A stretch of 64,000 bases of DNA from Haliotis asinina (lineage: Eukaryota > Mollusca > Gastropoda > Lepetellida > Haliotidae). The stretch is from assembly GCF_037392515.1 (NCBI RefSeq), contig NC_090282.1, positions 56,692,843 to 56,756,842 of the forward strand, read 5' to 3'. The notes below the pieces were generated by a model. It was not told where the DNA came from and searched no databases. It saw only the letters and a program-made list of their open reading frames with translations. A program made the position numbers and the translations under genes. Shown here piece by piece: positions 3,025-49,600 of this stretch; the stretch's first letter is position 1; each line of letters begins with the position of its first letter.

Positions 3025-6000
3025 CCTCCCCATCCCCAAATACTTACACCAATACCTTTCTCCTTAACGTTATCGAATCCCCCCCAAAAAATGACGCAAA
3101 TTTTGTGTGGACAATCTGTAAATCAGAGGATTCAGGTATAAAGGGACGTATGACATCGGAATATTCTCTTGTGTGCCCTGATGTCATAACATCTAAGGAT
3201 GACGCCATGTCTCTTACACACTTGTGAGAATATATGTTCGGTTAGCACTGTATAGCTAGGAAATAAACACTGTTAATTACATAATTACTGAAGGAATCAG
3301 TTGTGAGTTTAAGTCACATCGGCAATATTTCTATCGTGTCTACAAATAAGTTATGGTTTTACAATAGATAAAGGTAAATTATAAAATCATGTCAGCAAAC
3401 GACACTAAAACAACTAGTTGATCCAAGATTTCAAATTGATACTTGTAGGTGACACTAAAACATTTTAACTATAGATGAAAATACAATATAAAACGGGCTG
3501 GATACTGCTAACAATTGAAAGGCGGTCTCCATGCCTGGGACCATGGCGACTTACGGTACTCTTGCTTACTGCAGGGACATTGTACTTTCTCAGTAAAGTA
3601 CAGATCTTTAGCTGCTTAGGTGACGTTGATATGAATATAGATATTGGATAGTCCACGACTACGATGAATCTGTTTTATTTCCAGATCAGCAGTTTCGACT
3701 ATATGTGCATCAACATCTGGAGGGATTGTTGGACTCATCCTGAGGTAATTAACGAGAGCTGTTGCCAAAGCTGTTAGCTACAGCTAAGTGACTGTTTGTG
3801 CTTAGTCGTTGAGATATAAATTCAATCTGTTATCAAGTGGATTCTTACCTAAACTATATTTATTGATTAAGGGAAAGTGATTGGACTTGATATTCGAATA
3901 AGAGGTTCGCAAGCATTAATGAACCACTCAGGAAGTTCTGTCTGATAAAACCAATGATCGTCAAACAAATCAAGAGTTGCAGAGGTCAGGTCTGTTTGAT
4001 GTGCTCAAGATAACGACTTACATGTCGGTGCATGCATTTTGAACTCAGCTCCTTTAGACTGACTTGGCATCGGATGTCATCGAACGGTGGACACATTGCA
4101 CGCTCATCTGGTCTCCCACGGTGTATTGTTTTGCTTACCATTTACAAACAGACGTCTCTAGCTAAGACTGCATTATTGGTTATGCTTTACTACTTTCCCT
4201 TGCCGGTATATGCCGTACAGTGTAGTTCACAAAACACTTAACTGTTGTTATGAGTAAGTATGATGAAAACTCGATACAGCGAGCAGGTTTAGACATCAAT
4301 ACACTTACAAGTGGTGAGTGGCGACTGAGATTATTGTCTCTTCGGTGTAGATATGCTTTGCTCAAACATGATTCATGGAACACATTCATTTTTTGTATTG
4401 TGATATGCATTGTGAAAGACACATGAGTATAGGACGGATGATAGGAATCGATAAACGTAAAGTGAAATACTGCAACGTATACAGTGATTTATTACAGGTG
4501 GCGCTGTTGTGTAAATATTACAACTATGTGGAAAACTGTATTGAGGGGATGTACACTCGTGAGACATATTTTCTACTCTGACTAAATAGACAGATATGAA
4601 TGCCTAGATGTACATATAATACAAGAGTGTCACTACAGAACATACGATAAATTTTAAAGTGCATGCATCACTCTGTTGGCAGTGATTATAGGCTTACGAA
4701 TTTCGAAATACCTATTTGTGATTGTGTGTGTGTGCGTGCGCGTGTGCATACGTGTGCGTGCAGATGTATATCGTCCAGACTGACTTTCTAGTCGAAGTGC
4801 ATTGAGGTACCATTCCGCAGTTTCACAAAGATATCCCACTCGAAAAGTTACCCCAAGTTGAATGTTGGTAACAAAAATATTCTTACAACGTTTTTCGTTT
4901 ACCGCACGACGCAAACGAGACAGAGACCCCACTCTTCCATTCAAAGTTCTGTGTGGTTCCACAAAGAGATCATCGACCAGCGTTTGTACTGCTGCTTCAA
5001 CGTTTACACAATCCGATAAAATGAAACGTTTGTTATGTTAATGCAGAAACGGTGAATGATCTGAATTTTCCAACTGGAGTTAATATTATATTATATCCAT
5101 AACTGTCATGCCTCGTCTTATACCTACCTCAAATCTATTGAAAAAAAATCGCCTCTCGTATTTCTGAATGGTTCATTACGTGGCAGTAATTGGTTGTCAC
5201 TAAACCCTCAAGGGATATCTTATAAATGGATTGCAACCAGATTCCAGTTTGAGTAATCACATGGTCAATAACTAATTAAGCCAGTTTTAAGTAATGATTA
5301 ACTGTGTTCTAACGGGTCGCTGTGAAGCCAGATCAGGTTCCATTTCACATTAATGTCGAAAACTTCTGTAAAGAAATTGAGAATCTGAAGTTTGTCATAT
5401 GTGTGCGCACGTGTGTGTTTGGATATCTGGGGATGTTAGCATGTATGTGTGTGTGTAGGGATGATAGATAGGTATGTGGATGCCGGGTGTGACAACAGAC
5501 TCACATATTGTTCAGAACATTGATGTTTGGGTTTCAGCTACATTGTGAAGAAGCGACAGTTTGATGTTGGATATCTGATCAACAGCATCCTTGGGTCTCT
5601 TGTTGCTATAACCGGTGAGTCATATGCAAGGAACGGAGAGAGGTCAAGTAGCACAAAGTTACATAGACATTGTAATCGACTTGATTTGCAAATAGGAACC
5701 ACGTATAAATGAAGGAGTAGACGGAACAGCTAGACAGAACAGCTAGACGGAACAGCTAGACGGAACAGCTAAACGGAACAGCTAGACGGAACAGCTAGAC
5801 GGAACAGCTAAACGGAACAGCTAGACGGAACAGCTAGACAGAACAGCTAGACGGAACAGCTAGACGGAACAGCTAAACGGAACAGCTAGACGGAACAGCT
5901 AGACGGAACAGCTAAACGGAACAGCTAGACGGAACAGCTAGACAGAACAGCTAGACGGAACAGCTAGACGGAACAGCTAGACGGAACAGCTAGACGGAAC

Positions 6001-9000
6001 AAGCAGCCTTGCTCTAATGTTGTACTGAAGACTAACACTAAACTTATGGGTACAGTAATATGGGGACAATAGTAATTCTATCCTTTAAAGAGGCAAGTCT
6101 AGATAAGTGAAGGAGAGTCGTCTGTGTATCTTTTATAAAATGGATATGTATATATTTTATTCATTATCATTTGAACTATCAATTATTATCTTAGAGACTT
6201 GTGCAAATCTATGATAACAAGACGACCACGGTTAAATACATTGACCTTATACTACTATGAACATATATCTTTTCCGACAAGTGGAATATATTTCGGTGGA
6301 TAATCGAACGCTATACTCTTGCCTTGGCGATGCATCAAGATCTCAAAATGTGAAGATACATTCCACGGATCATTATATATGTGGAATCCATTACCGTCTA
6401 AAATCATAAGTAGACAATGCTTTCTTGAGCAGTTTGCATCGAACTTAGTAAGCCTTATCTGAGACACAAACATCGAATCCTTTATTTTTCTTTCTCTTCA
6501 TTATTCGCCATGCTTCAAGTATGCTTCACACTAGGAGAGCGAGGTAACTGGCTTGCGCGAGAAGTATGGGTTGCTGATGACCATATTCAAAACCATTTTG
6601 CCATGACTCTACCCAGACAATGAACGATCATGATCAGATAACCTTCAGATACAAATTAAAACTTTGCCTTGTTTGAAATTTATGTAAAGAATCCCGTCAT
6701 GAAGAATCCTAGTCAAGACGTATGAGTCACATGTACATTAATTTTCAAATGATACATAAGTAGAACAAGTATGGTTTTAGTGTTGTGAATGGGAACAAGC
6801 TGAGTCACTTTAAAAACATAATTTCAGAAAAAAAAGTTCAGAAAAGTAGCTTCTTAGTTTAAGACTAAATAATGTGTTCTCCCATCTTTCCCCATCCATG
6901 TTGTAAGTACGTGAGGACATCGCTACTATTTGTGTATGTACAACACGTGTTTCTCCGTTTGTTAGTTCTTCACTTCCTCTTACACTTCAGCATTTTATGC
7001 GCTCTTTCTCTGCAGTTATAATTTTTTTTGGTTGTACAATCAAAATATTATACTGTAAGGTTTTAGTTGCGTGATGCTATATTTTAGTTTATTTAGTTTA
7101 TTTTTGTGTCACACTAAAATCTGTTAGAACTCTCCAATGGATGGTGTCTTAAATGCGTCGTCTTTGGCAAGACTGCGTCAACGCCAATGGTGGATGCACC
7201 CCATAATGAATTTGTGAACTGACTTTTGACAGAACATCTCTTCAAGGACGACAAGTAAAGAAAACCGAGCAAATCACGTTATTACCTTTTATCAATAAAA
7301 ATAGCATAGCATCAAATAATTCACAAGTACTTTGTTCACACGTCGGTGAATGGACCATTTTACAGATAGCTGCCTACTCATTTCTCAGGGAAGTTATACA
7401 TCACATACAGCCATTAGCCGCACAGTTTTCAGGGACTTAGGGAACTTAGATATCAGAACGATATATTATTTTCTTAATGATAAAGGTAGTATCAATGATA
7501 ATGACGATATATCATCAAAGGATACACAATTTCTTTTAATAAGGATGCAAAATTCAACAAGAATGTAAGAAATTGTAATTTTTACATTTCAGCCACGTGT
7601 GCAGTAGCTCATCCTTGGGAGGGCTTGTTGATCGGAATAATTGGGGCATGTCTTACAATACTTGGTATTACAATCCTGGAGAAACTCAAGATTGATGACC
7701 CCGTTGGTAAGTGTCTACGAAAGCACTCCACAAACTCATCACACTCTCTCTCCCATCCCGTAGTTGCAGGAGGTAGTCTAAGTAAACTTAGTCTCAGTGA
7801 ATTTCGTTACACGCCACCACTGAGTCTAACAAAACCTAGTAGAAGGTCGTGTCAGGTAACTTTTGAGCGACCAATGACCGTCCAGTCAAACGCGAGACGA
7901 TTAAATAGATTTAACCAATCTGACAACGGCTACTATGTAGGGATCGGGGGACTTTCAAAATATTCAGGTCACTGACACAGTCAGATTACCGGATAATAGT
8001 TCTATTTTCACAGCGGAAGCAAACGCTATATTAACGGCTCTTAAATATATTGAAAGACATCCTAGTATATAATCTATTCTGACTCTCTTTCTTGCATCCA
8101 GGCAATTAAAAACCTGTCATGTAAACATCCACTTTTAATAGAAATAATTCAATTATATAATAATCTGGCTACTGGCCAATACGACATCGTCTTTTGTTGG
8201 TTACCAAGCCATGTACGCATTTCTGGCAACACAGTGGCCGATCTTGCTGCCAAGGCAGCACTCAAAAAATCCGTGACTCCACTTCTCATCCGATACTATG
8301 ATTATAAAGCTACAATTAGATCGTATATCCGAGATCTGATGCAAAAGAGGTGGGGCATCTAACTGGGTGTAAATAAATTACATGCAATAAAACCTTATAT
8401 TGGTTATACCCACTTGGGTTGTCAGTCCAGATTTGAGGAGGTCATTATGTGACGATGTCGTATTGGCCATACGAGACATACTCATAAATACCTTTTGAAA
8501 GGTGAGGATCCTCCGTTCTGCATCCCTTGTGATGAAAGAATCACAGTCAAGCATGTCTTGCTTGACTGTGTTGAGTATTCCATCACAAGGGATCAGTATT
8601 TCAATTCACAAACTATGAAGGATCTTTTTAGCAATATTAGCCCTCATTTAATTATTGCATTTTTAAAGGAATTAGATTTGTTAACTGAACTGTAAATAGA
8701 TAAATATTTTACAATTGGAAGATTAAATTAGTAACTCAAATCGTTAGTGGCTGTACCCTCAAAGGGGGTTGAAGTCCAAAAACATTTGAATTTAAGTTTT
8801 CCAGCTTTTTAATCGTAGAATAAGTGTGTTTTTACTTTATGGCTAGATTTATCTAAATTGCTTACAGTTGAGGGGATGATGTAAATCCAACTAGGGTCCA
8901 TGCAGGAAGCAAATGTACTGTAAGTCCCCATGGTCCTTAGTATGGTGATCTACCTTCAGTTGTCGGCAACCTATTGCTCATTTTTAAATTGTTCTGTCCT

Positions 9001-11537
9001 CTATAGATAAATTGTTTTAGGTCTGTTCACTAGTTTTACATTCTACTCTGTGATATCCTAGTTAGTTTTCCTGTCCTTCGTCGACAGGGTTGTATGTGTT
9101 ATTAATTCATTTGTATTTTCATAATTACTCTTTCTCGTCACGATATGGCTGCAATATTGCCGATGTGACGTTAAATATTAACTCACTAACTAACTGGCTG
9201 ACACAGATCTCTCCACAAACAAAAATCCGCATATAACACAGTTATTTGACCTGCAGTATATACGCTCTGGGTTTCTGCTGACATGGTTACCATTAGCTAA
9301 TATTTTCGCAAGATAACGCCCTTGAATAATGCCAAGACACTATTTTCAGCGACTGTTTTCTCGCCCTTGTCATGGTTGCACGTACGCCGTGTGGATCACC
9401 CGGAAGCGAGCATGCGCTAAATAGCATTCAGAATCGTTTGGGTACGAACCTGTTCGAGATAAAAAATTCAAAAGGCATGTTTGGTAAGCTGTGTTCTGAT
9501 TGGTCAATCTCAAAGGTTACATGACGCGACCTCCTATAAGGTTTTGTTAGACTCGGTAGTGGAGTGTAACGAAAAGTACTGAGGATAAGTTAACTTAGAC
9601 TGTTGCAGGAGGAGACGCTAGTTTCCCAGGTTCCATGCTTGTACCCTGATGGACACATCGGCGACGATGCCGTCGTGTCAAGACAGGTCCAATTTGTGAT
9701 TGGTATGATCGAATTTCCACTTCTCCTAGACGATATGTGATGCACTGGATGGTCTTCGACGACCAGTCACCTGTCCTGCAGTGTGGCATTGAATTATTTA
9801 TTAATTTAATTAATATTCCAAATGCGATGTTGACATATTCAACTGCGAACGCACATAGTAATATTTATTTGTCTTCTTGTGCGGGCACAAAGACATGTGC
9901 TACTAAGCACGAATGTTCTCGATGAAAATGGAAAATACAGTGAATAGTCGACAACCACCACCATCTGGGATGATCTGATATCTGTTTTGCAGGCTGTGTA
10001 GGCGTCCATGCTGTAGGCGGTACGTGGAGCTTGCTTGCAGCAGGGTTTGTGTCGAGAAAGGACTCATTTGCAAGTGAACTTCAACTTAACAACGCCCAGA
10101 ATGGTGTCCTCAGTGTAAGTTTGATTGTATTACGTTGCTATTAGTGCCTAGCGACAACACCATGTCTCTGGCAAATAAGGTCACACATATTGATAAGCTT
10201 CTGATAAACAGTTTAAACACCACTTGTAAGTACCCTTTACATTATCGATCCTGCTTTTGGTGATGTTATAATTAAAATGAAAATATGCGTTAACTGTTTT
10301 AGTTTTCAGCAGTAAAAACACTCTGTTTGTCAGCTAATCAGGAAACTGATTGTAAATGTTAAAAACAGTGTTAAATGAAAAATCTTCGTGGTAATGTCGA
10401 ATTTCAATGTCGAAAGAAATCTGACACCATGGCAGGTAACTCGCGTGTGATATCTGCAACATGTGTAGACGCGTTTATTGACCTCACTGGATTATCAGGC
10501 TGGGTGAATCATTTGGCCTGTCAATGATACTGAATCCATATAATTACCTTTATCAACATTTGCTATCAACGCGTTCACCAATCGTGAGGAAAAGCAGCAC
10601 AGAAGGGCACTGATTTGAACTCACGCTTGAAATGTAGCTTGCCTATGAAATAAAGATCTACATCCTGCGGGAGTGGATAAATGGCAATGTGATAAAACAT
10701 CATGTCCGTGCTATTATGCATGTCGAGAGTAATGCATGTCAAATTGAAAGTACACAGGTTAATCATTTCACAGCGCATAGATTTAATGTTATTCAATATT
10801 TAGTTTGTTGGAGCAAATAGGCTGTAGTTTCTATCTCTTGTTTACAGGGAGGAGGATTTCACCAGCTCGGTGTTCAAACTCTTGCTATAGTCGCTTTGAT
10901 CGGATGGTCGTTCATGACCTCATATATATTCCTGAAACTAATTGACGTTGTTGTTGGCCTTCGAGTTCCTCTGTGTGAAGAGATATTAGGGGCTGACTTG
11001 ATTGAACACGGGATAGGTCAGGGAACGTATAACAAGAAAACCAAGAAGGTTGTGTTTGATGACGAAGATAACTTCCTTGTTGGAGAGTTCAATGGGCACC
11101 GCACTCATAGTTTCGGAAAACATACAGACACCTGCTATGAAAAATACCAGCCTCATTACCAAATGCCGAAACGACGCTTTCTCAAAAGATTCCTCTTTTA
11201 CATGAAAGATCGTTTTTGGAAGACCCATAAACCAGAATCGGATAACAAACCCAATGGCAAAGAGGAGACCTTCGCTAGTGATGCCGATGGTGTCCCCAGA
11301 GCCACAGGGAGCCACTATGATGGTTTCCTGTATGAAGACTTTGGATTTTCGGACAGTAAAATGAACGGCAGATTTCAATACAGTACGCCGAGACATGCTG
11401 CCGATCGAAACTGTTACAGTACGTGGATCGACGGGCCCAGGGGAACGAAACGGGACAAGAAGACGGAAGCTACAGCACAGTCACTTCATTCGGACCTGGC
11501 TGTTCGTCCTAAAATGCCGGAAATGACGTACATATGA
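1084..11537 (+). CDS. Ammonium transporter (AMT/AmtB family) gene 1, 5' partial, seven exons
   Basis: Membrane channel or transporter for ammonium (NH4+/NH3). The spliced exons 1084-1366, 1878-1949, 3685-3744, 5538-5614, 7593-7706, 9993-10114 and 10848-11537 give 471 residues in one frame. Family landmarks are AMAERTKL, FPAHWFWG, DIAGAGPVHLVGG (family Asp and first pore His), WWGWLGFNCGSTFGIS, FDVGYLINSILGSLV, VGVHAVGG (second pore His), GVQTLA and the C-terminal GLRVPLCEEILGADLIEHG. All junctions are GT-AG and phase-matched. Compared with gene 2, about 132 N-terminal residues are missing; they must lie upstream of the window. After the regulatory motif comes a long basic tail of roughly 180 residues, about twice as long as in gene 2. 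Substrate and excretion role are inferred from the family. Confidence 0.93.
1367..1877 (+). other. AMT gene 1 intron with microsatellite
   Basis: GT-AG intron of 511 bp. It holds the (GTAT)n/(GCAC)n microsatellite at 1447-1534. I see nothing else recognisable. Confidence 0.85.
1447..1534. repeat. (GTAT)n then (GCAC)n microsatellite
   Basis: About 7 copies of GTAT pass directly into about 14 copies of GCAC or CGCA. It is preceded by ACTCACCCAC, the same lead-in that precedes the GTAT array at 16034. Confidence 0.95.
1878..1949 (+). CDS. AMT gene 1 exon: GWLGFNCGSTFGIS segment
   Basis: 72 bp. It completes a Trp codon and encodes WGWLGFNCGSTFGISGLKWKLAA. The length and both splice phases equal those of the gene 2 exon 52891-52962. 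The donor is CAG before GTATTG. Confidence 0.93.
1950..3684 (+). other. AMT gene 1 intron
   Basis: 1.7 kb GT-AG intron. It contains an (ACA)n run at 2976-3024. No gene or known element was seen in the rest. Confidence 0.85.
2976..3024. repeat. (ACA)n microsatellite
   Basis: About 16 tandem ACA/CAA triplets inside an intron. Confidence 0.95.
3685..3744 (+). CDS. AMT gene 1 exon: small transmembrane exon
   Basis: 60 bp, acceptor TTTCCAG, donor GAG before GTAATT. It encodes SAVSTICASTSGGIVGLIL with a split Ser codon at its end. It matches gene 2 exon 53349-53408 in length and phase. Confidence 0.92.
3745..5537 (+). other. AMT gene 1 intron
   Basis: 1.8 kb intron. It holds short GT-rich stretches near 4720-4760 and 5400-5460 only. 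No gene seen. Confidence 0.8.
5538..5614 (+). CDS. AMT gene 1 exon: FDVGYLINSILGSL segment
   Basis: 77 bp. It encodes YIVKKRQFDVGYLINSILG and SLVAIT, with donor CCG before GTGAGT. Same length and phases as gene 2 exon 53861-53937. Confidence 0.92.
5615..7592 (+). other. AMT gene 1 intron with 13-bp tandem array
   Basis: 2.0 kb intron. The 13-bp array at 5718-6000 is its main content. The rest is AT-rich sequence in which I see no gene or known element. Confidence 0.8.
5718..6000. repeat. 13-bp minisatellite, unit GACGGAACAGCTA
   Basis: About 22 copies of a 13-bp unit. Variants are GACAGAACAGCTA and AACGGAACAGCTA. The A variants recur in a loose three-unit rhythm. Confidence 0.95.
7593..7706 (+). 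CDS. AMT gene 1 exon ending in DDPVG
   Basis: 114 bp, acceptor CATTTCAG, donor GTTG before GTAAGT. It encodes the segment around CAVAHPWEGLLIGIIGA and ends in IDDPV plus one base. Gene 2 has no intron here and reads straight on into VAVHGASGIW. Confidence 0.93.
7764..7877 (-). repeat. Left arm of inverted repeat pair
   Basis: It starts TGCAGGAGGTAGTCTAAGT and ends near ACCAATGA. It matches the reverse complement of 9498-9612 throughout with scattered differences, including the shared stretch GAGTCTAACAAAACCT. Confidence 0.8.
7979..9205 (+). mobile_element. I/Nimbus-like LINE, copy 2: 5'-truncated with RNase H remnant
   Basis: It begins in an RNase H domain: FTAEANAILTALKYIE carries the catalytic Glu region, and WLPSHVRISGNTVADLAAKA is the typical C-terminal RNase H motif with His and Asp. 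It continues into the same Cys/His tail and 3' UTR as copy 1. In-frame stops and shifts (near 8075, 8360 and 8451) show it is dead. It lacks about 38 bp of 3' UTR present in copy 1 (around 430-470). It ends in TTAAATATTAACTCACTAAC. Confidence 0.85.
9498..9612 (+). repeat. Right arm of inverted repeat pair
   Basis: It reads TGATTGGTCAATCTC through GGTTTTGTTAGACTC to GTTGCAGGA and pairs with 7764-7877. The two may be opposed copies of one small element or terminal repeats of a larger foldback element. Confidence 0.8.
9993..10114 (+). CDS. AMT gene 1 exon with second pore histidine
   Basis: 122 bp, acceptor TTTTGCAG, donor CAGT before GTAAGT. It encodes CVGVHAVGGTWSLLAAG, with His as the second twin-His residue, then a loop ending in NAQNGVLS. 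The exon boundary falls inside the loop before GGGFHQLGVQ; gene 2 has no intron there. Confidence 0.93.
10115..10847 (+). other. AMT gene 1 last intron
   Basis: 733 bp GT-AG intron. I see no feature in it. Confidence 0.85.
10848..11537 (+). CDS. AMT gene 1 terminal exon with long cytoplasmic tail
   Basis: 690 bp, 229 codons plus a TGA stop. It begins GGGFHQLGVQTLAIVALIG (last membrane helix), then GLRVPLCEEILGADLIEHG, the conserved cytoplasmic motif that couples AMT subunits. The remaining tail is hydrophilic with clusters of Lys, Arg and His (KKTKKVVFDDED, PKRRFLKRFLFYMKDRFWK). No other domain was recognised in the tail. Confidence 0.93.
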   Translation, partial: GGGFHQLGVQTLAIVALIGWSFMTSYIFLKLIDVVVGLRVPLCEEILGADLIEHGIGQGTYNKKTKKVVFDDEDNFLVGEFNGHRTHSFGKHTDTCYEKYQPHYQMPKRRFLKRFLFYMKDRFWKTHKPESDNKPNGKEETFASDADGVPRATGSHYDGFLYEDFGFSDSKMNGRFQYSTPRHAADRNCYSTWIDGPRGTKRDKKTEATAQSLHSDLAVRPKMPEMTYI

Positions 11538-14180: not shown

Positions 14181-14259
14181 GTTATACATTCACCACATCA
14201 AACCCAGGCTCTGTGGAAATCATTCACTGCATCAAACAAAGCTATAGATAACGCTATAC

Positions 14260-15170
14260 ATGCACAACATCAAATCTAGATCACGGCAATACATTCACAA
14301 CATCAAATCTAGATCACGGCAATACATTCACAACATCAAATCTAGATCACGGCAATACATTCACAATATCAAACGAAGATCACGGCAATACATTCACAAC
14401 AACAAATCTAGATCACGGCAATACATTCACAACATCAAATCTAGATCACGGCAATACATTCACAACATCAAATCTAGATCACGGCAATACATTCACAACA
14501 TCAAATCTAGATCACGGCAATACATTCACAACATCAAATCTAGATCACGACAATACATTCACAACAACAAAACGAAATCATGGCAATACATTCACAACAT
14601 CAAATCTAGATCACGACAATACATTCACAACATCAAATCTAGATCACGGCAATACATTCACAACATCAAATCTAGATCACGGCAATACATTCACAACATC
14701 AAATCTAGATCACGGCAATACTTCCACAACATAAAAAAATCTAGATCACGGCAATACTTCCACAACATCAAATCTAGATCACGGCAATACATTCACAACA
14801 TCAAATCTAGATCACGGCAATACATTCACAACAACAAAACGAAATCATGGCAATACATTCACAACATCAAATCTAGATCACGGCAATACATTCACAACAT
14901 CAAACCTAGATCACGGCAATACATTCACAACAACAAAACGAAATCATGGCAATACATTCACAATATCAAACAAAGAACAAGGCAATACATTCACAACATC
15001 AAATCTAGATCACGGCAATACTTCCACAACATCAAATCTAGATCACGGAAATACATTCACAACATCAAATCTAGATCACGGCAATACATTCACAACATCA
15101 AATCTAGATCACGACAATACATTCACAAAATCAAATCAAGAACACGGCAATACATTCACACCATCAAATA
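14260..15170. repeat. 33-bp minisatellite with degenerate flanks
   Basis: About 27 copies of a unit close to AACATCAAATCTAGATCACG followed by GCAATACATTCAC. Degenerate units reach from about 14180 to 15300. Because the unit is 33 bp and one frame lacks stops, it reads as 303 codons of an 11-residue repeat (YIHNIKSRSRQ). A 3-bp insertion near 14730 keeps that frame. There is no splice or promoter context, so I treat it as non-coding. Confidence 0.9.
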
Positions 15171-19200: not shown

Positions 19201-19550
19201 TGGAAGAGAAATAGTATCTCATAGACACCATAGCAGTAATACACTGTGTATTCTAACACACAACTTTAGGATCGTACAGATTAATATTTCTTGCTTTCCT
19301 ATCCCAGTGTAAAAAAAAAAATACACAACAGAATGTTTTGGAATGAGTGAGGGCACACGACTCCGTGGTCACTACTCCATCCCCAACGTGACCCTAAAGA
19401 CCGGAACTAGAACTATTGAGTGTCTACAATTGTGTGGCATTGTTGATGATTCCTTCACCAATAAGGGGCAATTATCTTTCTTCTCCACTGTCCGAAACTG
19501 GCCCTACTGATGTTACGTTGATGTGAGGATAAAATGTGAGGTGATTACAC
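16290..19550. other. Intergenic, nothing recognised
   Basis: 3.3 kb of AT-rich sequence without motif-bearing open frames. An A-run occurs near 19311-19321. Confidence 0.65.
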
Positions 19551-19555
19551 ATACC

Positions 19556-19995
19556 ACATTATATGGAATCCGAGAAGTGACCTTGTCGCGTTGTCGCATT
19601 GTCGCGTTGTCGTCCTCTCAAAAACAAGCAAAATGAGGAAAAAATTAACCAACGCGCGACAATGCGACAATGCGACAACGTGACGTTTCGCCTGTTTGTC
19701 GCATTGTCGCGATGTCGCGATGTCGCGATGTCGCGTGTCGAATAACATTTTCTCTGTTCCTCCAAAGTGCGACACGCGACATAGCAACACTTTTCAGGTT
19801 CAAAATATGTCACGTTGTCGTATTGTCGCCCTATCTACGATGTCTTAAAAAACCCTAACCATTTACTAAAACGCAACACGCGACAATGCGACATTTCATC
19901 AAAATGTCGCGTTGTCGCATTATCGCGTGTCGCGTGTCGCGTTTTAGTTAATATCTTATAATACATACTGTAGTCAATATTTTAACAAAGCGCGA
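19556..19995 (+). repeat. Left arm of the GTCGC element
   Basis: Contains AACAAGCAAAATGAGG, CGCCTGTTTGTCGC and TTTTCTCTGTTCCTCCAAAG, each of which recurs reversed in the right arm (about 21400-21727). Confidence 0.85.
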
Positions 19996-21229
19996 CGCGC
20001 GGTAATCAAAATTTTATTAGTTACGGCGGAATGTAAAAAAAAAACAAACTATGACAAGCATGATTATTTTTCGATATTTTTAAAGGGTTCAGATAGCCAG
20101 GGATCGACATCAGAACGATGATAAATCAACGTACATCTCGTCGTGAAGTCCAGAGTGGTTGAGTATCGTTTCTTAAACGGAATGGTTCTATACAGACTGA
20201 CCCTTTAGCTGAATTTATTTTGATATAGCAGCCGTAGGTTTGAAACGATACAGGTACATGTGTATCGCAGGATCTAGTATCCGTATGAAAAAAATATGAG
20301 GCATATTGTGAATCAGGCTATGTGCAGGATTAATAATATAGGATTCAAACAGAAGTGAAAAGGGGCATCACAATACATCATTGTAATGAAATATCGTGCT
20401 ATTTATATCAATAAACCTTGAGTGAGTGGAGTGGAGCGGCGAGAAGAGTGAGAGGAGTGAGGGAGGGAAAGCTGGTTTCTGGCACTACAAGTGTACGCAA
20501 CTCTACCAAGTGATGTCATTGTTTCTAATATCCTACTGCTAACAGTCCATTAGTAAGGTGTTTTCCCATTATCACGTTCAAAGTCGACCTAAACTGTCAT
20601 TGAGGTGACGGATGGTTAAGTGATGTCTAATTCGACTTAGTATCCATCCACTGCTGGCTGAACAGAGGCAGAAATCGAACAAATTCATCAGCGTCGGACA
20701 GCACTGTACCACGAAACTGTCAGGAGCCACATTATGGAACATAGTGACCCATACGAGGACATCATCTGATGAATTTGCCGATGTGGCTTGAATTTTAACA
20801 ATATTTTAGTTTTTCACAACCTGTAATCAAACCTGTCATCGAAATCTCCAAAGTGATTAATGTGTATGGTGCTGGAATTCGAACTTATGATAATAACTAT
20901 CTGGTGTGACTAAGGGACTAACTCTGCTCAGCAAATTGCCCCTCCTTGAATGACAGGGGTACAGTGCGCCGTGATTACAGTGAATAGTTGCGCTACTAAT
21001 TCGTTTTGCTGCTAGAACACACTTGACTTGCTAAATCCATTTGCAATATGTAAAACAATAAAGAAAGATTTGCATTAAGTTCAAGAAGAGAAGGCCCATT
21101 GCCATTTCGAGCACTACTTAATTTTAAAAACCACTGGAGGTAACGAAAGACCAGTGAAGTCTGGAATAGAGTATAACATTTTCTGCGCATGCGTAGATTA
21201 ATTTACTTTCTACACATGCGCACCGGTAA

Positions 21230-21727
21230 CAAAAAGGGCGACAACGCGACAATGCGACATACATTTTGTCGCATTGTCGCGTGTCGCGTGTCGCGTGTCG
21301 CGTTTCAGTCAATTTGTTAAATGCATACTACGGTCAATATTTTAATAAAGCGCGACACGCGACAGTGCGACATCGCGACATTTTGATGAAATGTCGCGTT
21401 GTCGCGTTGTCGCGTTGTCGCGCGTCGCGTTTTAGTGAATTCTTACATATCCGAGATTGGGCGACAATTCGACAACGTGACATATTTTGAACTTGAAAAG
21501 TGTCGCTATGTCGCATGTCGCACTTTGGAGGAACAGAGAAAATGTTATTCGACACGCGACACGCGACATCGCGACAATGCGACAAACAGGCGAAATGTCG
21601 CGTTGTCGCATTGTCGCATTGTCGCGCGTTGGTTATTTTTTGCCTGATTTTGCTTGTTTTTGAGAGGGCGACAACGCGACAATGCGACAACGCGACAAGG
21701 TCCCTTCTCGGATTCCATATAATATGG
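21230..21727 (-). repeat. Right arm of the GTCGC element
   Basis: From about 21365 onward it is the reverse complement of the left arm. The part 21240-21360 matches 19880-19995 in direct orientation instead. Overlapping open frames rich in SRCRVVAR-type peptides are artefacts of the octamer repeat. Confidence 0.85.
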
Positions 21728-22340
21728 AATGCGTAATATGTCAAGCAATGACCTGTGTACCGTGCTTATTGACCGAATTGAATCGAATGGGCGTGTGTCG
21801 TCATTTGTCTTGCAGTCGTTCCATACTGCACAATATTTCGGTTCTGATTGTCATGAGTGAATTTGTCAATAATGTGATTATTGACAAAGGATCTCGAGGA
21901 CTGGAATTGGATCTTTATCGAAAAAAAATCATCATGTGGCAAATCGATATCATAATCGACAGGCACGGACGTTAATCGTGTCAGATGTTGTTTGCAAGAC
22001 AATACATTACGCGTGTCCCATCCCTCCGGTTAAGGTACCAGTGTTTAAAGGGAACTGCACATGCACAATCATCACAACTATTTCCTGTATTCAACTTGTA
22101 CAGGCAGTATGCTTCTAGTAAACACATGATTGTATACACAGGTATCACCGACTGCTCAGGGTATTTTGAGTTCAGGTCTGGAATATATATTTGCAAACGA
22201 TGAAAAACACCAGAATAGTGTTGTTATATATGTTTGTAAGTGTTAACGTTTACGTTACAACCCAAACAACAGGTAGGTATAGAATGTTAAATAATCTGAC
22301 CTCAGGTGATCAACCAAGAAGACGTTAATCGCGGACTTGG

Positions 22341-22492
22341 AGTGAGTGAGTTTAGGTTTAAGCCGCTTTTAGCAATATTCCAGCAATGTCACGAGGGATA
22401 CACCAGAAATGGGCTTTACACATTGTAGCCCTGTAGGGAATCAAAACAGGGTCTTCGGCGTGACGAGCGAACTCTTTTTACTACCAGCTTGC
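22341..22492 (-). mobile_element. SINE-A (tRNA-derived)
   Basis: On the + strand the tail reads AGTGAGTGAGTTTAGGTTTA, then GCAATATTCCAGCAATGTCA, then the reversed tRNA-like head (GGTCTTCGGCGTGACGAGCG). On the - strand this is head, body and ACTCACTCAC tail. Confidence 0.7.
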
Positions 22493-24611: not shown

Positions 24612-26031
24612 TTAAAAAAAGATACATAGTCTTAAAAGCCTATTGTTATCGCTTGTTTTCGTCAATTCAAGAAACATTTGGACATGAGGGTGTGTATGAC
24701 AATATTCAGGTAAATATCTAGCACGATATTCATTGTAGAGAGGACACACCAGTTTGATATGGAATTCATCTTCTAGTTCAATCAGACAAGAAGTACAAAA
24801 CGCAGTTTCATAAGTTTTGGAGTGTTTATAAGAATTAACATTGAAATCATGTACATTACAACGAATCTTTGTCAAACATCTCCGTAAATCGTTTGCACCA
24901 ATAGCTTTTAGATAATTTTCAAGAGAATAATCAGTCTTTACTCTTGCATAGAGTGTCAAAGATTCGGAAAGGACCACGTGTTGATGCCACTCTTGGTTAT
25001 ATACATCTTTTGAGCGCTGTTTAAAATTATCAAGAAAATATTTCACATTACTAACATTTTGTGCTATCCACACGTAGCCGAAGCCATATCTAAATAATAA
25101 CATTCTCACCTTTGATACCCAATACTCGTCTCCATTATCATCTAGTCTTTTTAACATTTCATAACATTTCCTTGTGTATCTGTATGGAGGCTGGCGTAAG
25201 ATCCTGATCCAAAACGACAAAAGGCTAATATGGGCATAAATTTCAATTGGATAACGACCACATTCTGCCAGCGCGGCTTTACCTGATGCCCTAGAGCCAA
25301 TCTGTAATACGTATTTACAAAAACTTGAATGCACCCTTTCAATTGGCTTACGTTTTTCCCATCTCCAGAGTTCAGCACCATATAAAAGTATAGGCTTAAT
25401 CTTGCCATCAAATAGCTTGAATGCTGCCTCAACTGGGATATTTTGTAGTTTGTTGATAAAGCGTTTGATTGGGTAAAAGGCCTTTCCTGCTCGTTGGGAG
25501 TGTCTCACATGCTTTTGCAAACATGTTTTTCCAGGAGAATATAATGCCGAGATACTTGTAATAAGATGTGGTTTCAATGCGTTGTCCATTAATAAACCAT
25601 TTTTCATATTTCGACAAAAAACCTCCCTTCTTATAAACGACAACTTTGGTTTTATTTTTGTTTATAGTTAATGCCCATTTCTCACAATATCTTACTAAAA
25701 TATCTATTTTTTTTTGAAAGTTGACAACAGGGTCTGCAAATATAGCTACATCATCAGCAAAGAGCAATATTGACAATTCGGCAATGAATATGCCAGCATC
25801 ATCAGATTTCATTATTTCATTTACTAGTTCATCAATATACATTATAAATAATACTGGTGACAATATACACCCTTGTCTTACTCCACATGATGTGTTAAAC
25901 ATATTAGTCATGGTTGTTTTACTGCACCGAACTGAAGCCTTAACATTCTTGTAAATATTTGTTAAAAGGTTATGTACCTTACCATGTATACCTCTTTGGA
26001 ACAGCAGATAGAGCAGACCTGTTCCAATCAT
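24612..26031 (-). mobile_element. Non-LTR retrotransposon, 5'-truncated and frameshifted (reverse transcriptase)
   Basis: The N-terminal part (frame ending 25429) holds reverse transcriptase motifs: SCGVRQGCILSPVLFIMYI, then LLFADDVAIFAD (catalytic FADD), then LTINKNKTKVVVY and YLGI. The following part (25643 to 24612) is in another frame and holds PILLYGAELW, AECGRYPIEI and a Cys/His tail (FCTSCLIELEDEFHIKLVCP). One frameshift near 25500 separates them, and the 5' end including the endonuclease is missing. It is an inactive copy. The clade is not assigned. Confidence 0.88.
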
Positions 26032-28105
26032 GACCGTTTGTGTATCAGCAATAAATGTGAACGATCTGCGTCACCCGGTCTTTCCTCCCACATCACGGTG
26101 GCAAGCTATGACGTAGCTCAAATATTGTTTAAATCAGGAACTCACTCATTAGTTAATTCAACAGAAATAAATCCAGACTCCTTGTCATCTTTGATTGCAC
26201 ATGTGGTTTGCGTACTTCTGAAAAAATACAAGGATCGGTTTACATTACTAGATAATATAAATGACAGCAGCTCTCCAACAGTGATTACTATAATGACGAC
26301 TATTATCTCTTGTGACATTGGCATTACATTGTTGAGGAACCTTTAATGGAGTTACAGTGACATACACAATTATCGCCTCATATATATTCACTTAAACTTT
26401 TGCAACAACACATGCGTTTCTTGGTTTTTAGGTGGGTCATAATTCCACTCGGGTATATCAGTTCCATTTATTTCGGTTAAGGATGTTCAATTATGTTATC
26501 AGAAGAAGCCTTGAACGATTTAATGACGTCATTAACCAGCAGGGTAGGTACTCAACAAGGAAATGTATTTTGACTTACTTTTCTGTACTCATCATCCATC
26601 TTTTGCGTCTAACTGGGCCTTAAGGTACCACCTACATGTAAACGCATTCCATTTCTATGATAAATCCTTATAAATACCTTACATCACAGGGAATGTAACC
26701 TTCAGTATCAGGAGGTATATCTTTGTTTTACTACCCAATAGTGGCTGACAGTAAGTACGCTGCAATAACGCCCCGAACCTTGTCATACCACTCTTGTCCT
26801 GAACTTGACGACCTTCCGTTGCATATGAGATGTTGTTGTCGTTAGCGCCACTATACTGTTAATGAAACAATAGTGGTAAAAGTCTAAGATGACATTAGGT
26901 ACACTCACATACTGCACTCAGCTTAATGTATCAGATGCATGATCCATCACACAGATACAATAGAGATACTGAAAGGTTCGCTGGTGACAATAAAACCTCG
27001 GTCGTCATGGTGTTCGTAGCAAAGTTTCAGTATGGGATACCTTTACTGTGTCTCATACGAATCAAGTGGTGATTAATAACTACCTACCTACCTACCTACC
27101 TACCTACCTACCTACTTTAATGCATTGCTAAATGTCAATAAAGGCACTCTCGGTTTTTGCGCTTTCCTCAAAGAGAAATTATTTCTTTCACGCTGTCTTG
27201 GTATTTATATAAACCTGTTTAATGCCAATAGATGCCATGTAAAATAGGATGTCACGTGTAATATGGTGCTTGTTTGGGAACCCATGCATGTACTGTAAGC
27301 TTACATGTTTCTTTAGGCCTGCGACCTCGATGTATGACGGTACTTGACACATCCGTGAAATAAAATTCTGAACATATGGCGCCTATTTTATTGTGAAATC
27401 CGATTGACATGACATTTAATCAACATATCTGTGAAAAAAAATAGTATTTTAACTTTGATAGTGTTTCAGCGAAAGACATTAGACGGAGGGAGCCGAATAA
27501 TATTTACCAAAGGATAGAACATTGTATCACTGTAAACAACAAAATACATTCCCCAGGAGATAAATACTCAGGAGAAAACTCCTGGCATCACTTCCGATAT
27601 ATTTTTGGCAACAAGGATATCCAGACGACGTGGTTCAGATGGAGTGGGGAGGTTCATATATGAAACGTAAATGTTATAACAGGTATTTCATGGATGGGAT
27701 CCAGACAGATTCAAGATTTTAATGTTAATAATTCTGCTGGAAAATGCTTACGGAGATTCGATACACCCTGTCGGTTTTAAAGAAGTAAACAAACCACTGA
27801 CTTTGGGCTCTCAATTTACTCACAGAATCATCTCTAAGGGGCGTGTCTAGCGCGCAAAAACGGAAACACCGATTTGCCGTGATACCATCATTGCCGCGAT
27901 ACAACGAGGTATATATGTGGGCATCAGTGCTTATGGTTGGTATTGCTTTATGGTTGGTATTGCTTTTAAACATCATCACAACCGCCACCAGACCCCATCC
28001 CAGAAATACTTGACGAAGATGTCATTATTCAGTTTGAATGATTATCAGCTTGTATATTTTGATTGTCTGAATCCTGAAACGTGGTAATACTTTGTTGATT
28101 AATGC
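26032..28105. other. Intergenic, one microsatellite
   Basis: Only the (CTAC)n run at 27080-27115 stands out. No convincing ORF. Confidence 0.6.
27080..27115. repeat. (CTAC)n microsatellite
   Basis: Nine tandem CTAC units. Confidence 0.95.
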
Positions 28106-43600: not shown

Positions 43601-46600
43601 ATGTAAAGCATCAAAACATGATACACTGAGCAGTATAACAACGGATGTGGTCCTCAGAATCGGCGGCAGGTTCAGGCGTAGATTACGTGAATCTACAAAT
43701 ATAGGTCCAAGAGATGCCAGCAACAAACAAGTATTGGATAATTCCAGGTACTTCAACATCTTTTGATGTGGCGGCGGCCGGATAATGGAATGAACTTTCA
43801 GAATCAATGAAAGACATCAAACCTCTGTTCTTGTTTAAAGTGCAATAAAAAACGTATCGGTTTCAAAGGGTTAAAATAGCTATACCAGGCACTGTCCTGA
43901 CATCCGATACAGAACTGATACACACCCAGATGTGATGAGTATGCAAGTTTAGTCATAAATAGCGACTCCGATTATGAATACATGTAGTTTGAATGTTCTC
44001 ATTGGAAACATCAACCGCGTCTTCAACGATTCTTACAGAAATATTGACATGCTTAATTAAAGTAAAACAAATGCTGCAAAGAGGATTCAGGGTACAATGA
44101 GGTTCGTTAAGCTGATAGGCAAACCAAAGCCCTCTTTGCATACAGTCCAGAGAGCGGATGGACATTTTGCAGGAAAAGTTGCCTTGTCAAATCCGGCTAA
44201 ACAGTAGTGGACAATAAAGGCTAAACAAAATGGGGACAGTCTTCTGAGACACCAAAGGTGCTGGATGGACTGTGGCAGTAAGGACTGGTACTCCTACAAT
44301 GGTGTCAGTCAACAGATTGGATAGTCTCACTGGATTCATTGTAAGATCCACATTGCTTTCCAAGACAGGTATATACCTGATATTCGAAAAGATGCTCAAC
44401 AACTTTCATGCCCCTTGTGACACCCGATCCATCGTATGCTACCTTGCCACGTTGCAAACGAAGAGTATTGCATTTGTTGAGTCCAAATACCTATATCAAT
44501 GGAGAGGATCCAACAGGAAGAAGGTGTTCTTCCAAAATGGCGTCTCCTTTGGCAAGGCAGTCTGTCATACATGTAAAGGGGATGAGAAAGTGCTGCTGTG
44601 GGTCTATTAAAGCCGGGATGCAAGCCTTCCTATTTATTGAGCAAAAGGCTCAAATGAATTAAAGACAGACAGAAAAGCAAAAGACTGTACGAGTATCCCC
44701 TTCTGACTGGAATATTTCCCGACGTCCTTGCCACTACCTCCGAGTCGACCAGCAACTCCTTAAAGATTAGCGTAAAATGAAGAAGTCGGCCAGGGAGGAA
44801 ATGTTTACCGTTTTCATAGTCAGTACAGCACGGGGAGGGGTTCTGGTAATTCACGATATTCTAACAAGGGTAGGGGAGCTCTCAAATCTCCTTTATTGGA
44901 ATATTCTGTAGAACCAGTTAAGAACATGGCCGTGTCCAGTAGAGAATTGATATAATGATGCTATTGTGTTCAGATACATGAAAATAGTTCCAAATAAAGG
45001 TCCTCTCAATATGTGGCATGTATGACTAGCAGTTACAGTGTGCAGCTCAGCTAATGCGTCAGTGAGTGTATGAGTTTACAACGCTTTCAGCAATAATCCA
45101 GCAATATCATGCCGAGGCACACGAGAAAAGGGCTTCACAGATTGTGTTCATGTGAGGAATCGAACTCGGATATTCGCCATGGCGAGCGAACGTTTCAACC
45201 ACTGGGCTATTTCACCGCCAGACTTCGTAAGGAAGTACAAATACATTCTTGCATAATGCAGCAAAGGTTGCCCCTTTTTCCCAGCGTATGGGAAAGTGTA
45301 AGTCTGCTTATGACATTCTCCCCTTGGAAGTCGTTAACAAATTTATAATGACATACTGCCCAACGCACCGATCAACCAAACGTGTCCATTTATACTCGCG
45401 AGTTTTCTTCAACATATTTATTATCACTCTCACTTGGAGTTTTGAATGAAATTATTTAGAAATCCACATCTACAATGACTGAGAAAGATATACAAATACC
45501 TTTCGTCGTCTGTTTATTCATATATATTCTCATTGACCAGTACTTGTATTTGCAGGTTTTGGACTCCTGGAAGCTGGGGTCGTGTCATCCAAAAACGAAG
45601 TCAACATCATGGTGAAAAATGTAGTGGATATTGTGTTCGGCGGCTTGACATACTGGGCCTATGGTTTTGGATTTAGTTTCGGCGAAGACCCGGGTACAAA
45701 TCCCTTCTGTGGGATCGGGTACTTCTTTGTGGACTCCAGTGATGAAAATATGGGCATCGTGTTTTCAACGTTTGTATTCCAGCTCTCTTTTGCGACCACA
45801 GCTACGACCATCGTTTCGGGATGCATGGCGGAACGGACTAAACTGTTAGGCTACATGTTGTTTTCATTTTTAAATACAGTTGTATATTGTTTTCCTGCCC
45901 ATTGGGTATGGGGTTCCAAAGGTTTTCTGAAGGAATTGGGATCGGTGGACTTTGCAGGGTCTGGTGTTGTGCATCTGGTGGGTGGATCTTCTGGCCTTAT
46001 TGCATCAATATTACTAAAACCACGCATTGGTAGATATGACCATGGAACTGAACCCCTCCCTATGTGCAGCCCAGCCAATGCAATTGTTGGAACGTTCATG
46101 TTATGGTGAGTAGCTTGTTTCAAATTATACATCAATGCTCTTTCAGTATTTGAACATTTTGGAAGGAAGAACAACAACACTTGGATAAACAGGTATTCGC
46201 TGTCAAAAAACGGAAGGGACAGTGGAGTAAAACAAGCGTATATATATATAATATATTTCGTGAACTGACCCGTGAAGATCAGGGTTATAATTGGCCTCCA
46301 TAAACCATTGTTATCACCATAAAGACGGGCTCGCATGGTCAGGCTCACTGACTTGATTGACATATGTCATCATATTATGATTGCGTAGATCCATCTTCAT
46401 GCTATTGGTCAGTGGATTATGCAGCCAAGACTTGACTATTTACAGATCGATATCATATAATTGGAACAGTGCTGAATGAGGGGTAAAACTGAACTCACTA
46501 ATTGTTCATTTCTTAGATTTTGAATGGCAATAACGGATGGTTTACGTCACAAGGGGTCATTGAATGAATAAGTGGGTAAAAACACTTGCAACAGAATGTC

Positions 46601-49600
46601 ATGTCGCTAATAGCGACAGCATCAACATGGCATCATTGCCAGCATTGACGTTTGTTCAAAACAAACATGTCGTGTAGATAATGCTTATGTAAGGTATTTC
46701 AACTCAAATGTTTAATGCATGTTCAACCAAACTATAGCATGCATGAATTATGATACGATTTGTAATTTCGAGGCTGGTAACTTTTTCAGGACTCAAGAGG
46801 CATATTATTATGCGTCGTTACTTTTCAGTTCACTTCTGCCGTTTGCCACTGAAGCGGTAAAGGATTTCAGTATGCGTGCATTTAAGATAACTTAGGCTTA
46901 CTGTTCATATGTGTTGTGGAGTCTGGGGTGAATGAGTAAGTTAGTGAGTAGGGTTTTACACCGATTTGTAGCAATATTCCAGCAACATCTCGGCGGGGCA
47001 CACCAGAAATGTGCTTCACTTCCATGAGGGGAATCGAACCTGGGTCTTCGGCGTGATTAGCGGACGCTGTAACCACTTGGATAACCCACCATCCATGGTC
47101 TTGCCGTAGATCTAGTTTAAATCTACATATCCTGGAGACATTATTAATTATTCATAGCTGACATGAAGCACACCCGAGGTTCTTAATGGAGGTTCACATG
47201 CGTAGAAGACGCCATTGGTTTGTGTAGTTGAAACCATCAATAATGTATGACCTAATCCACGATGCAGTGGTAGTGTTTTTCATCATGACAACTATTTATT
47301 GACCAGCTTTGTGGCAAATATCACCCAGTGGCACTGTCACAAAGCATGTTTTCGCCATGTACACTTTATTTCCTACTATCAAATTAGAGTCAGTGAATAT
47401 TTTGTAAGACCCATTTAGATTTCTATGACATTTACTGCACGTCCTCTCAACCAATGTGCTCATTGTTTAGAATAGGTGTCAATTGATTGTCAGTTAATTG
47501 TTCTCAGTCACTGGTTTGAAGCCTGTAAAAAGATTTCGTATTTTATGGTTTAGCGCTTATGTTCCTACTTGCCACAGATTAAATAAATGGTTTTTCAAAC
47601 ATTCAACGTACGACTCCTGGTAATACCGTTTTCTGAACAAACAGTGTTGTGATCATTCAACGATTCTTCTCCTTTGATTAAAGAATATAATTAAAACCTA
47701 TACACACATTTAGCAGTGATAGACCTTTTGTAATATTGATTTATGATACAGGGTAAATGATATAACGACAAATGGTTTCATTAGTGGCGATGTTTTATTA
47801 CCGGTATAGTAGTAGTACATGTAGTCTGACAGTCGTTTAATGGACAGGGTCTTTATGAGCTAGGAGATGATCTGACACGAACTTCGGTTCGCGACTGTGT
47901 AGGGGAATGAACGTAAGACTGGAACTGTGAAAACCTCATAGAAGACGTGTTTAAGAACGTTGATTTTGTTCATATTACAATCATAACACATTCAGTTCCT
48001 TTGTCGTGCTCCGTTTGCTTTCAGTATTAGAGTGCATTCGTATTTTCAACCACATTTGTAGACAGTGATACATTCTCCTAATTTCGGTCATCATGTTATT
48101 GCAACCTATCCCAGCATACTATCAAAGGCTGTTTGTTGAGAACATAGAGTATCTTCGCGATTCGGTGTAACGATGACAAGGCAAGAACCATGATCATGAA
48201 AATCTTGGTTTCGGAGCTAAGAGGGGGCAGCTGAGTTAAAACAACTCTCCATGACCATTTGTGGTACCGATATACGGAGGGATTACACACTAACAAGTTA
48301 GACATTGGAATAGTCCTTAACACTGTTACCATAAGTGTCAAGGTAGATAATATTACCATTATGTTACAGTTTTCCTTGAGGCACTGACAGTAGTGTCAAG
48401 GTAGATAATATTACCATTATGTTACAGTTTTCCTTGAGGCACTGACAGTAGTGTCAAGGTAGATAATATTACCATTATGTTACAGTTTTCCTTGAGGCAC
48501 TGACAGTAGTGTCAAGGTAGATAATATTACCATTATGTTACAGTTTTCCTTGAGGCACTGACAGTAGTGTCAAGGTAGATAATATTACCATTATGTTACA
48601 GTTTTCCTTGAGGCACTGACAGTAGTGTCAAGGTAGATAATATTACCATTATGTTACAGTTTTCCTTGAGGCACTGACAGTAGTGTCAAGGTAAATAATA
48701 TTACCATTATGTTACAGTTTTCCTTGAGGCACTGACAGTAGTGTCAAGGTAGATAATATTACCATTATGTTACAGTTTTCCTTGAGGCACTGACAGTAGT
48801 GTCAAGGTAAATAATATTACTATTATGTTACAGTTTTCCTTGAGGCACTGACAGTAGTGTCAAGGTAAATAATATTACCATTATGTTACAGTTTTCCTTG
48901 AGGCACTGACAGTAGTGTCAAGGTAGATAATATTACCATTATGTTACAGTTTTCCTTGAGGCACTGACAGTAGTGTCAAGGTAGATAATATTACCATTAT
49001 GTTACAGTTTTCCTTGAGGCACTGACAGTAGTGTCAAGGTAAATAATATTACCATTATGTTACAGTTTTCCTTGAGGCACTGACAGTAGTGTCAAGGTAG
49101 ATAATATTACCATTATGTTACAGTTTTCCTTGAGGCACTGACAGTAGTGTCAAGGTAGATAATATTACCATTATGTTACAGTTTTCCTTGAGGCACTGAC
49201 AGTAGTGTCAAGGTAGATAATATTACCATTATGTTACAGTTTTCCTTGAGGCACTGACAGTAGTGTCAAGGTAAATAATATTACCATTATGTTACAGTTT
49301 TCCTTGAGGCACTGACAGTAGTGTCAAGGTAGATAATATTACCATTATGTTACAGTTTTCCTTGAGGCACTGACAGTAGTGTCAAGGTAAATAATATTAC
49401 CATTATGTTACAGTTTTCCTTGAGGCACTGACAGTAGTGTCAAGGTAAATAATATTACTATTATGTTACAGTTTTCCTCGAGGCACTGACAGTGAGTGAG
49501 AATGATTGTACGCAATATTTAAGCAATAGGCTTCCCATATTGTACCCTTTGGGGGAATTCAACTCACGTATTCATCACTGGGCAACACCGTTGCACCCAA

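Follow-up and report, generated by a model that had tools for sequence, protein, structure and literature searches.

The stretch of Haliotis asinina DNA analysed here (the window, 64,000 nucleotides of contig NC_090282.1) contains a CpG-dense segment whose two ends are built of short octamers and close in an inverted repeat, which raises the question of whether it is a mobile element, and of which kind, a satellite captured between inverted repeats, or the product of a local rearrangement. The original prediction, made from the letters alone, offered a non-autonomous foldback element or a captured CpG-rich satellite, and knew no named family of this make-up.

The element is confirmed, although the limits first proposed for it overshoot by 6 and 8 bp. 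It measures 2158 bp, starts with TATGGAATCCGAGAAG, of which an inverted copy stands at the other end, and has a longest reading frame of 127 codons. Its limits are TATGG and CCATA, where other copies stop and target duplications start; the outer ATTA/TAAT beyond them is flank (Table 1). The 20-bp inverted repeat that had been reported as shared, ATTATATGGAATCCGAGAAG, was found at both ends.

Table 1. Features of the element and of its surroundings, in window positions
Feature	Positions	Strand	Remarks
Whole element	19562..21719	.	TATGGAATCCGAGAAG..CTTCTCGGATTCCATA, 2158 bp; exact 16-bp ends present
Left 27-bp end	19562..19588	+	family form TATGGAATCCGAGAAGGGACATTGTCG, 2 differences in window copy
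Right 27-bp end, inverted	21693..21719	-	1 difference from family form
Family end, written form			TATGGAATCC
Left arm	19562..19933	+	homologous to 1-362 of the 7.4-kb copy; octamer orientation alternates
Internal deletion junction	19880..19933	.	54 bp matching two octamer blocks of the 7.4-kb copy, 309-362 and 5581-5634
Central octamer block	19880..20005	.	adjoins left arm through the deletion; origin of the direct subsection
First direct repeat	19923-19958, 21284-21319		89% identical
Second direct repeat	19960-20001, 21320-21361		86% identical
Middle	20006..21235	.	CpG obs/exp 0.85, ordinary; short frames only
Right arm	21236..21719	.	octamer orientation alternates; hairpins
Left flank	19544..19561	.	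imperfect inverted repeat of right flank (15/18); without 6-bp target duplication
Right flank	21720..21737	.	imperfect inverted repeat of left flank; holds TATGGAATGCG, close to the element's own end
Dispersed repeat, ~140 bp	22340-22477		SINE-like by size
Ammonium-transporter exons (PF00909)	10821-11534, 45537-46106, 54167-54691	+	
Ammonium-transporter exon	7505-7975		by eye only
Reverse transcriptase fragment (PF00078)	25432-26070	-	LINE-like by eye
Minisatellite, 33 bp	14245-15169		open in two + strand frames, one of 307 codons
Minisatellite, 58 bp	48334-49498		
Minisatellite, 13 bp	5718-6001		

The arms are built of TTGTCGCR octamers (GTCGC core) in both orientations, as had been described, over ~440 bp on the left and ~480 bp on the right. 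They come in runs of 1-5 that alternate in orientation with short spacers between, and are tandem inside the blocks. Arm-to-arm complementarity extends over 176 nt at 94% (18 nt of them flank) and 130 nt at 89%, plus shorter blocks. Counting both strands, 52 of the 64 TGTCGC words in the window lie in the element; the 12 outside compare with 17 when the remaining window sequence is simulated at first order, and simulated arms (first-order, 500 runs) held 1.7 on average and 6 at most. The CpG observed/expected ratio reaches 2.25 in the left arm and 2.18 in the right arm, whereas it is 0.85 for the middle and 0.75 for the remainder of the window. It is CpG, not total G+C, that sets the element apart in the window: the claim that it stands out from an AT-rich region is right for CpG, but total G+C is barely distinct (0.40-0.43 in the element's three kilobases, 0.335-0.433 over the whole window). 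The subsection said to be repeated in direct orientation is real, with two direct matches between left and right parts (Table 1), and each arm, as single-stranded DNA, does fold on itself (z -9.3 and -15.3, with 0/100 shuffles as good). An Rfam search of the window gave no match.

We searched the genome (1.14 Gb, 159 contigs) with the element and with its end. The whole element gave 304 matches (40 of 609 candidates scored), the 27-bp end with at most 2 mismatches was found at 239 + 242 = 481 places (reversed-pattern control 0/0), and the exact 16-bp ends at 148 + 136 = 284 (control 0/1). The element therefore belongs to a dispersed genome-wide family, and this family is not a local rearrangement. 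Besides the window copy, both ends were read at 18 sites. An exact 6-bp target duplication flanks the copy at 13 of them (9 in a first set, plus L050, L052, a 9462-bp copy on contig C2 and a 7284-bp copy on C1), a duplication with one mismatch at 4 (L028, L051, L056 and a 7398-bp copy on C6), and none at one, L012. The first set held 15 end pairs; minus the window copy and an inner pair of L047, 11 of 13 copies have exact 6-bp duplications, which makes 9 of 11 sites, since L014 and L020 go back by duplication to one insertion, as do L017 and L035 to another. Duplication lengths of 3-10 were tried in this set, and the exact sites match at 6 only. The three long copies (7398, 9462 and 7284 bp) were read in pieces, and further loci with one recognised end in the piece read stand outside the count.

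No target duplication was present when we sought one at the window copy. Ends that occur together nowhere else, or an empty allele in another individual without clean insertion boundaries, had been proposed as marks of a local rearrangement; the window copy, which has no target duplication or clean boundaries, partly fits that description. No empty paralogous site was found in the genome when both of its flanks were searched, because the left flank is single copy and the right flank is matched elsewhere solely through the dispersed repeat of ~140 bp (39 further scored places, 84-89% identity).

Copies range from 61 bp to 9.5 kb. Of the 18 copies for which a single locus contains both ends, none has a coding frame above 169 codons. 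Mini-elements of 154-164 bp stand at four places, and the 61-bp copy is made up of its two ends plus two octamers, between the flanks CTTGTT and CTTGTC. With a divergence of 1.6-5.8% from the consensus, the family is young. The idea of a non-autonomous foldback element thus proved right at the level of the family, with its hundreds of ends, 6-bp target duplications and lack of longer frames. The satellite captured between inverted repeats fared worse, and we regard it as scarcely credible. The octamers are indeed tandem within blocks, and a satellite-like state can arise, as at L022 (C10:6089500-6099400), where right-half units lie head-to-tail, two complete and two partial, with a period of 1709 bp and three joints with one common spacer; however, octamers stand next to the ends in every copy read, even in the 61-bp copy, and sit within the 6-bp duplications, and TGTCGC is not enriched in the window outside the element. 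L022 itself looks like a young tandem array derived from the transposon.

To which superfamily, then, does the family belong? IS3EU elements have TA..TA termini and usually 6-bp target duplications (PMC10045372), and a fungal IS3EU set is described with 6-bp duplications, terminal inverted repeats (TIRs) of >30 bp and TAYGG..CCRTA termini (PMC12730594). The family ends, TATGG..CCATA, fit both TA..TA and TAYGG..CCRTA, the TIRs, as in the fungal set, exceed 30 bp, and 17 of the 18 other sites, 4 of them with one mismatch, have the 6-bp duplication that the window copy lacks. The family also has what is expected of a foldback element: its long arms carry internal tandem repeats and fold on themselves, its middle varies, and it has no coding capacity. 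We therefore consider it probable that this is a non-autonomous foldback-type cut-and-paste transposon with an IS3EU end signature, moved in trans by an IS3EU-type transposase. The statement that no named family has this make-up accordingly needs a qualifier: the ends and target duplications match a published signature, whereas arms of hundreds of bp, octamer-made and foldback, are absent from the IS3EU descriptions in the excerpts consulted. A further difference is that the autonomous IS3EU member has an IS3/IS481-type DDE transposase, whereas none was found in the family copies examined. Membership would be by signature, not by enzyme, because the catalytic gene was not found in the searches.

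Most foldback elements are assigned to Mutator, with exceptions (PMC4079207). The usual homes of such elements, Mutator/Phantom and the P superfamily of Galileo, have to be weighed. The anatomy is the same as in Tetris (PMC4079207) and Galileo (PMC3688188), with repeat-bearing long arms, a variable middle, no coding capacity and rearranged copies, and Tetris and other foldback elements also share the seeding of tandem arrays (PMC4079207). Galileo of Drosophila, like the Haliotis family, has very long TIRs with internal repeats (PMC3688188), but it has other ends and stands in another superfamily. Plant Mutator-like elements with multiple long TIRs resemble the family in their extra internal copies of end sequence (PMC3310237); these differ in being Mutator members, with mostly tandem TIRs rather than octamer blocks of two orientations (PMC3310237). 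Against an origin in either superfamily stand the target duplications, which are 6 bp here (at most one mismatch) but 8-10 bp in Tetris (PMC4079207), and the TATGG..CCATA ends, which match IS3EU. We think such an origin very improbable.

Polintons (Mavericks) also make 6-bp target duplications (PMC10045372), and the family could in principle be their non-autonomous rider. A Polinton-like family is resident in the genome: L054 (C11:7176800-7179900) is a 3.1-kb stretch with a frame for an integrase plus chromodomain; its 11 places in the genome agree at an identity that rounds to 100%, and it looks recently active. Yet vertebrate Mavericks end in AGT- or AG-repeats (PMC8097293) and the Haliotis family does not by that vertebrate standard, having TA..TA, though resident Polinton ends may differ from vertebrate ones. 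Moreover, none of 21 Polinton-like matches on C1-C6 comes closer than 6.9 kb to a listed end, and judging from the strand of that end the nearest match lies outside the element to which it belongs. The 18 copies, with their longest frame of 169 codons, have no capsid, polymerase or integrase genes, although a non-autonomous rider would lack them too. A Polinton rider thus seems very improbable.

Movement by an IS3EU-type transposase remains the preferred reading, and we looked for the enzyme both in the copies and in the rest of the genome. In the copies examined, frames, translations and Pfam revealed no transposase: frames of at least 110 codons in L047, L048 and L049 and of at least 70 codons in L053 gave no convincing domain, nor did six-frame translation of two middles (L048:201-3000 and L047:2501-4800). 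The Pfam search covered six fragments from long copies and one L053 fragment; matches to CFAP107 (E 0.034) and Cas9_Topo (E 0.0082) were below cut-offs and were dropped. A Tc1-type helix-turn-helix (PF01498) in the left arm region was weak and below cut-off in both L009 (E 2.4e-4) and L053 (E 0.0011); we take it as captured or nested debris and not the mover. Profile searches of the genome yielded 74 scored matches for the IS3 model and 63 for the IS481 model, none over the curated cut-off, and many of them, in long frames, are taken as retroelement integrases; one family, L054, is Polinton-like. An integrase-type frame at L055 on C13 reaches 100 bits with the IS481 model (cut-off 224), fitting over most of its length. 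Searching the genome with L055 gave 135 matches, including a family with dozens of 326-aa frames, and none of the matches on C1-C6 lies near the listed ends. The 107 integrase-type hits taken from these searches were compared with the 100 ends listed for C1-C6, out of 481 in total. A single end has such a hit within 10 kb; that hit is in a 1519-aa retroelement-like frame, and no integrase-type hit is inside a pair of the 100 listed ends. We infer the identity of the transposase.

The copies differ greatly in length and were compared with the best-read long form, the 7398-bp copy on C6, which has a left arm region, a middle and a right arm region. In L009 (4.2 kb) each half resembles the other in inverted orientation, at 91% over the outermost 360 bp, ~80% deeper inside and 69% in the centre, so that the whole is one long imperfect foldback. 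The shorter forms correspond to the 7.4-kb copy with internal parts deleted, and 8 junctions could be resolved: (i) both breakpoints fall in octamer blocks in 5 (window; L010/L016; L015; L028/L042; L050), where 14-86 bp of sequence are common to the two sides; (ii) one breakpoint falls in an octamer block in L014, whose right side is 4 bp outside the block, and L020; (iii) neither does in L052. Octamer blocks make up 11.9% of the 7.4-kb copy, and random breakpoint pairs would both lie inside them in 1.4% of cases. A single ancestral deletion of 4.1 kb, differing only in how it was aligned, may underlie L010/L016, L014 and L015, and merging them brings the count to 4/6. Not included are L051, whose left junction is unclear, and L009, L011, L012, L013 and L017, which have no clean junction.

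Two pairs of loci bear on the changes in size. L014 and L020 are one insertion in duplicated DNA, with aligned flank blocks 98-99% identical, and measure 4077 and 2248 bp; because the same insertion is present at two lengths 1.8 kb apart, size changes occur in place, and the difference was presumably a loss. L028 and L042 are near-identical at unlinked sites (both 2201 bp, 99.3% identical, with one mismatch in the target duplication of L028 and none in that of L042), so a deleted form has spread.

The window copy can be placed in the same history. In alignment with the 7.4-kb copy, its bases 1-372 correspond to 1-362 and its bases 319-2158 to 5581-7398. It is a deletion derivative of the 7.4-kb form, with ~1-335 joined to 5600-7398 over 54 bp of octamer homology. 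The direct subsection is explained by this, because the deletion has set the central octamer block beside the left arm, where it is direct with respect to the right-arm block. The ends of the window copy call for a separate account. The flanks on its two sides form an inverted repeat with 15 of 18 positions in agreement, and since it also lacks a target duplication, its ends have perhaps been rebuilt. Five variants are common to both of its arms and do not occur in 26 arm sequences from elsewhere; a further 13 and 10 differences are each confined to one arm.

One way in which the ends could be rebuilt is local inverted duplication by fold-back synthesis, in place of a clean insertion, which is compatible with our reading of the family as a whole. 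The missing target duplication, the inverted flanks and the five variants would follow, and the 9462-bp copy on C2 offers a clearer parallel: on its right side (L047:8182-8429) the terminal sequence together with 67 bp of flanking DNA occurs a second time, inverted, with one mismatch in the 67, forming a 248-bp palindromic element end, and this arose after insertion because the copy has an exact target duplication, GAAAAC. However, the five variants could signal an older subfamily, the right flank, being similar to the end of the element, may have been left by a neighbouring copy, 18 bp of inverted flank is short, and, with flanks compared in six copies, four others (L009, L010, L012, L015) show nothing similar. 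We give this origin of the window ends a little less than an even chance.

Taking as given what is observed, namely dispersal with 6-bp duplications, TAYGG..CCRTA ends and junctions in octamer blocks, we suggest the following working for the non-autonomous IS3EU-type transposon. An IS3EU-type DDE transposase made elsewhere would bind the ends and excise the element, which would insert at cuts staggered by 6 bp. In the long arms, the GTCGC octamers are most likely repeated secondary transposase-binding sites, like the repeats in the TIRs of Galileo, in which several transposase-binding sites have been footprinted or identified (PMC3688188); such binding in Haliotis is proposed by this analogy. 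Octamer blocks in the same orientation would recombine, or slip in repair, and delete the intervening DNA, yielding shorter forms from the 7.4-kb form, the window copy included. We infer this repair route; the octamer repeats would make the element unstable, because the deletions fall in them. Counted against this account are the 61-bp copy, which exists without long arms yet may have shrunk after insertion, the negative search for a transposase in the copies examined, the missing target duplications of the window copy and L012, and the L052 junction outside the blocks.

A bolder version is that this is the first foldback lineage of IS3EU, in which the octamers would serve both as a putative transposase docking array and as hairpin homology for shedding the middle and rebuilding the ends, and end pairs without target duplications (the window copy and the inner pair of L047) would thus arise outside transposition. 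We offer it as speculation and think it rather unlikely.

The high CpG content of the arms also allows a look at methylation decay, which we counted over 33 right-half copies, leaving out matches shorter than ~1500 bp or below 85% identity. In the octamer part, C-to-T and G-to-A changes were at 0.018 and 0.014 at CpG versus 0.027 and 0.019 at other C/G; in the non-repeat part the values were 0.018 and 0.016 versus 0.012 and 0.015, a slight CpG excess. Long germline methylation of the arms is unlikely, because strong CpG decay is not seen in them, for a family that is young and whose repeat alignment is uncertain.

In searches of the open-licence literature we found no foldback family within IS3EU, and nothing on foldback elements in molluscs or on the TU elements of sea urchins. 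The one paper there that names both IS3EU and foldback is PMC8268682, with the latter only in the title of a cited work, and the excerpts seen describe no such element. Among the papers listed for the octamer words, none has the longer word and none is titled on such an element. Foldback anatomy is known from other superfamilies, and IS3EU-type ends on a foldback family appear, within these searches of the open-licence literature, to be new. Foldback elements have so far been tied mostly to Mutator and P transposases; if the Haliotis family is IS3EU, a superfamily with relatives among bacterial insertion sequences and retroviral integrases has given rise to this anatomy as well. The series of copies from 61 bp to 9.5 kb is natural material on what repeated end sequences do, and the twin loci L014 and L020 catch a 1.8-kb size change within a single insertion.

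We finally note some other features of the window (Table 1). The element sits between ammonium-transporter exons, which are probably tandem gene copies. A fragment of reverse transcriptase is encoded on the reverse strand, and there are three minisatellites, one of them with long open frames.
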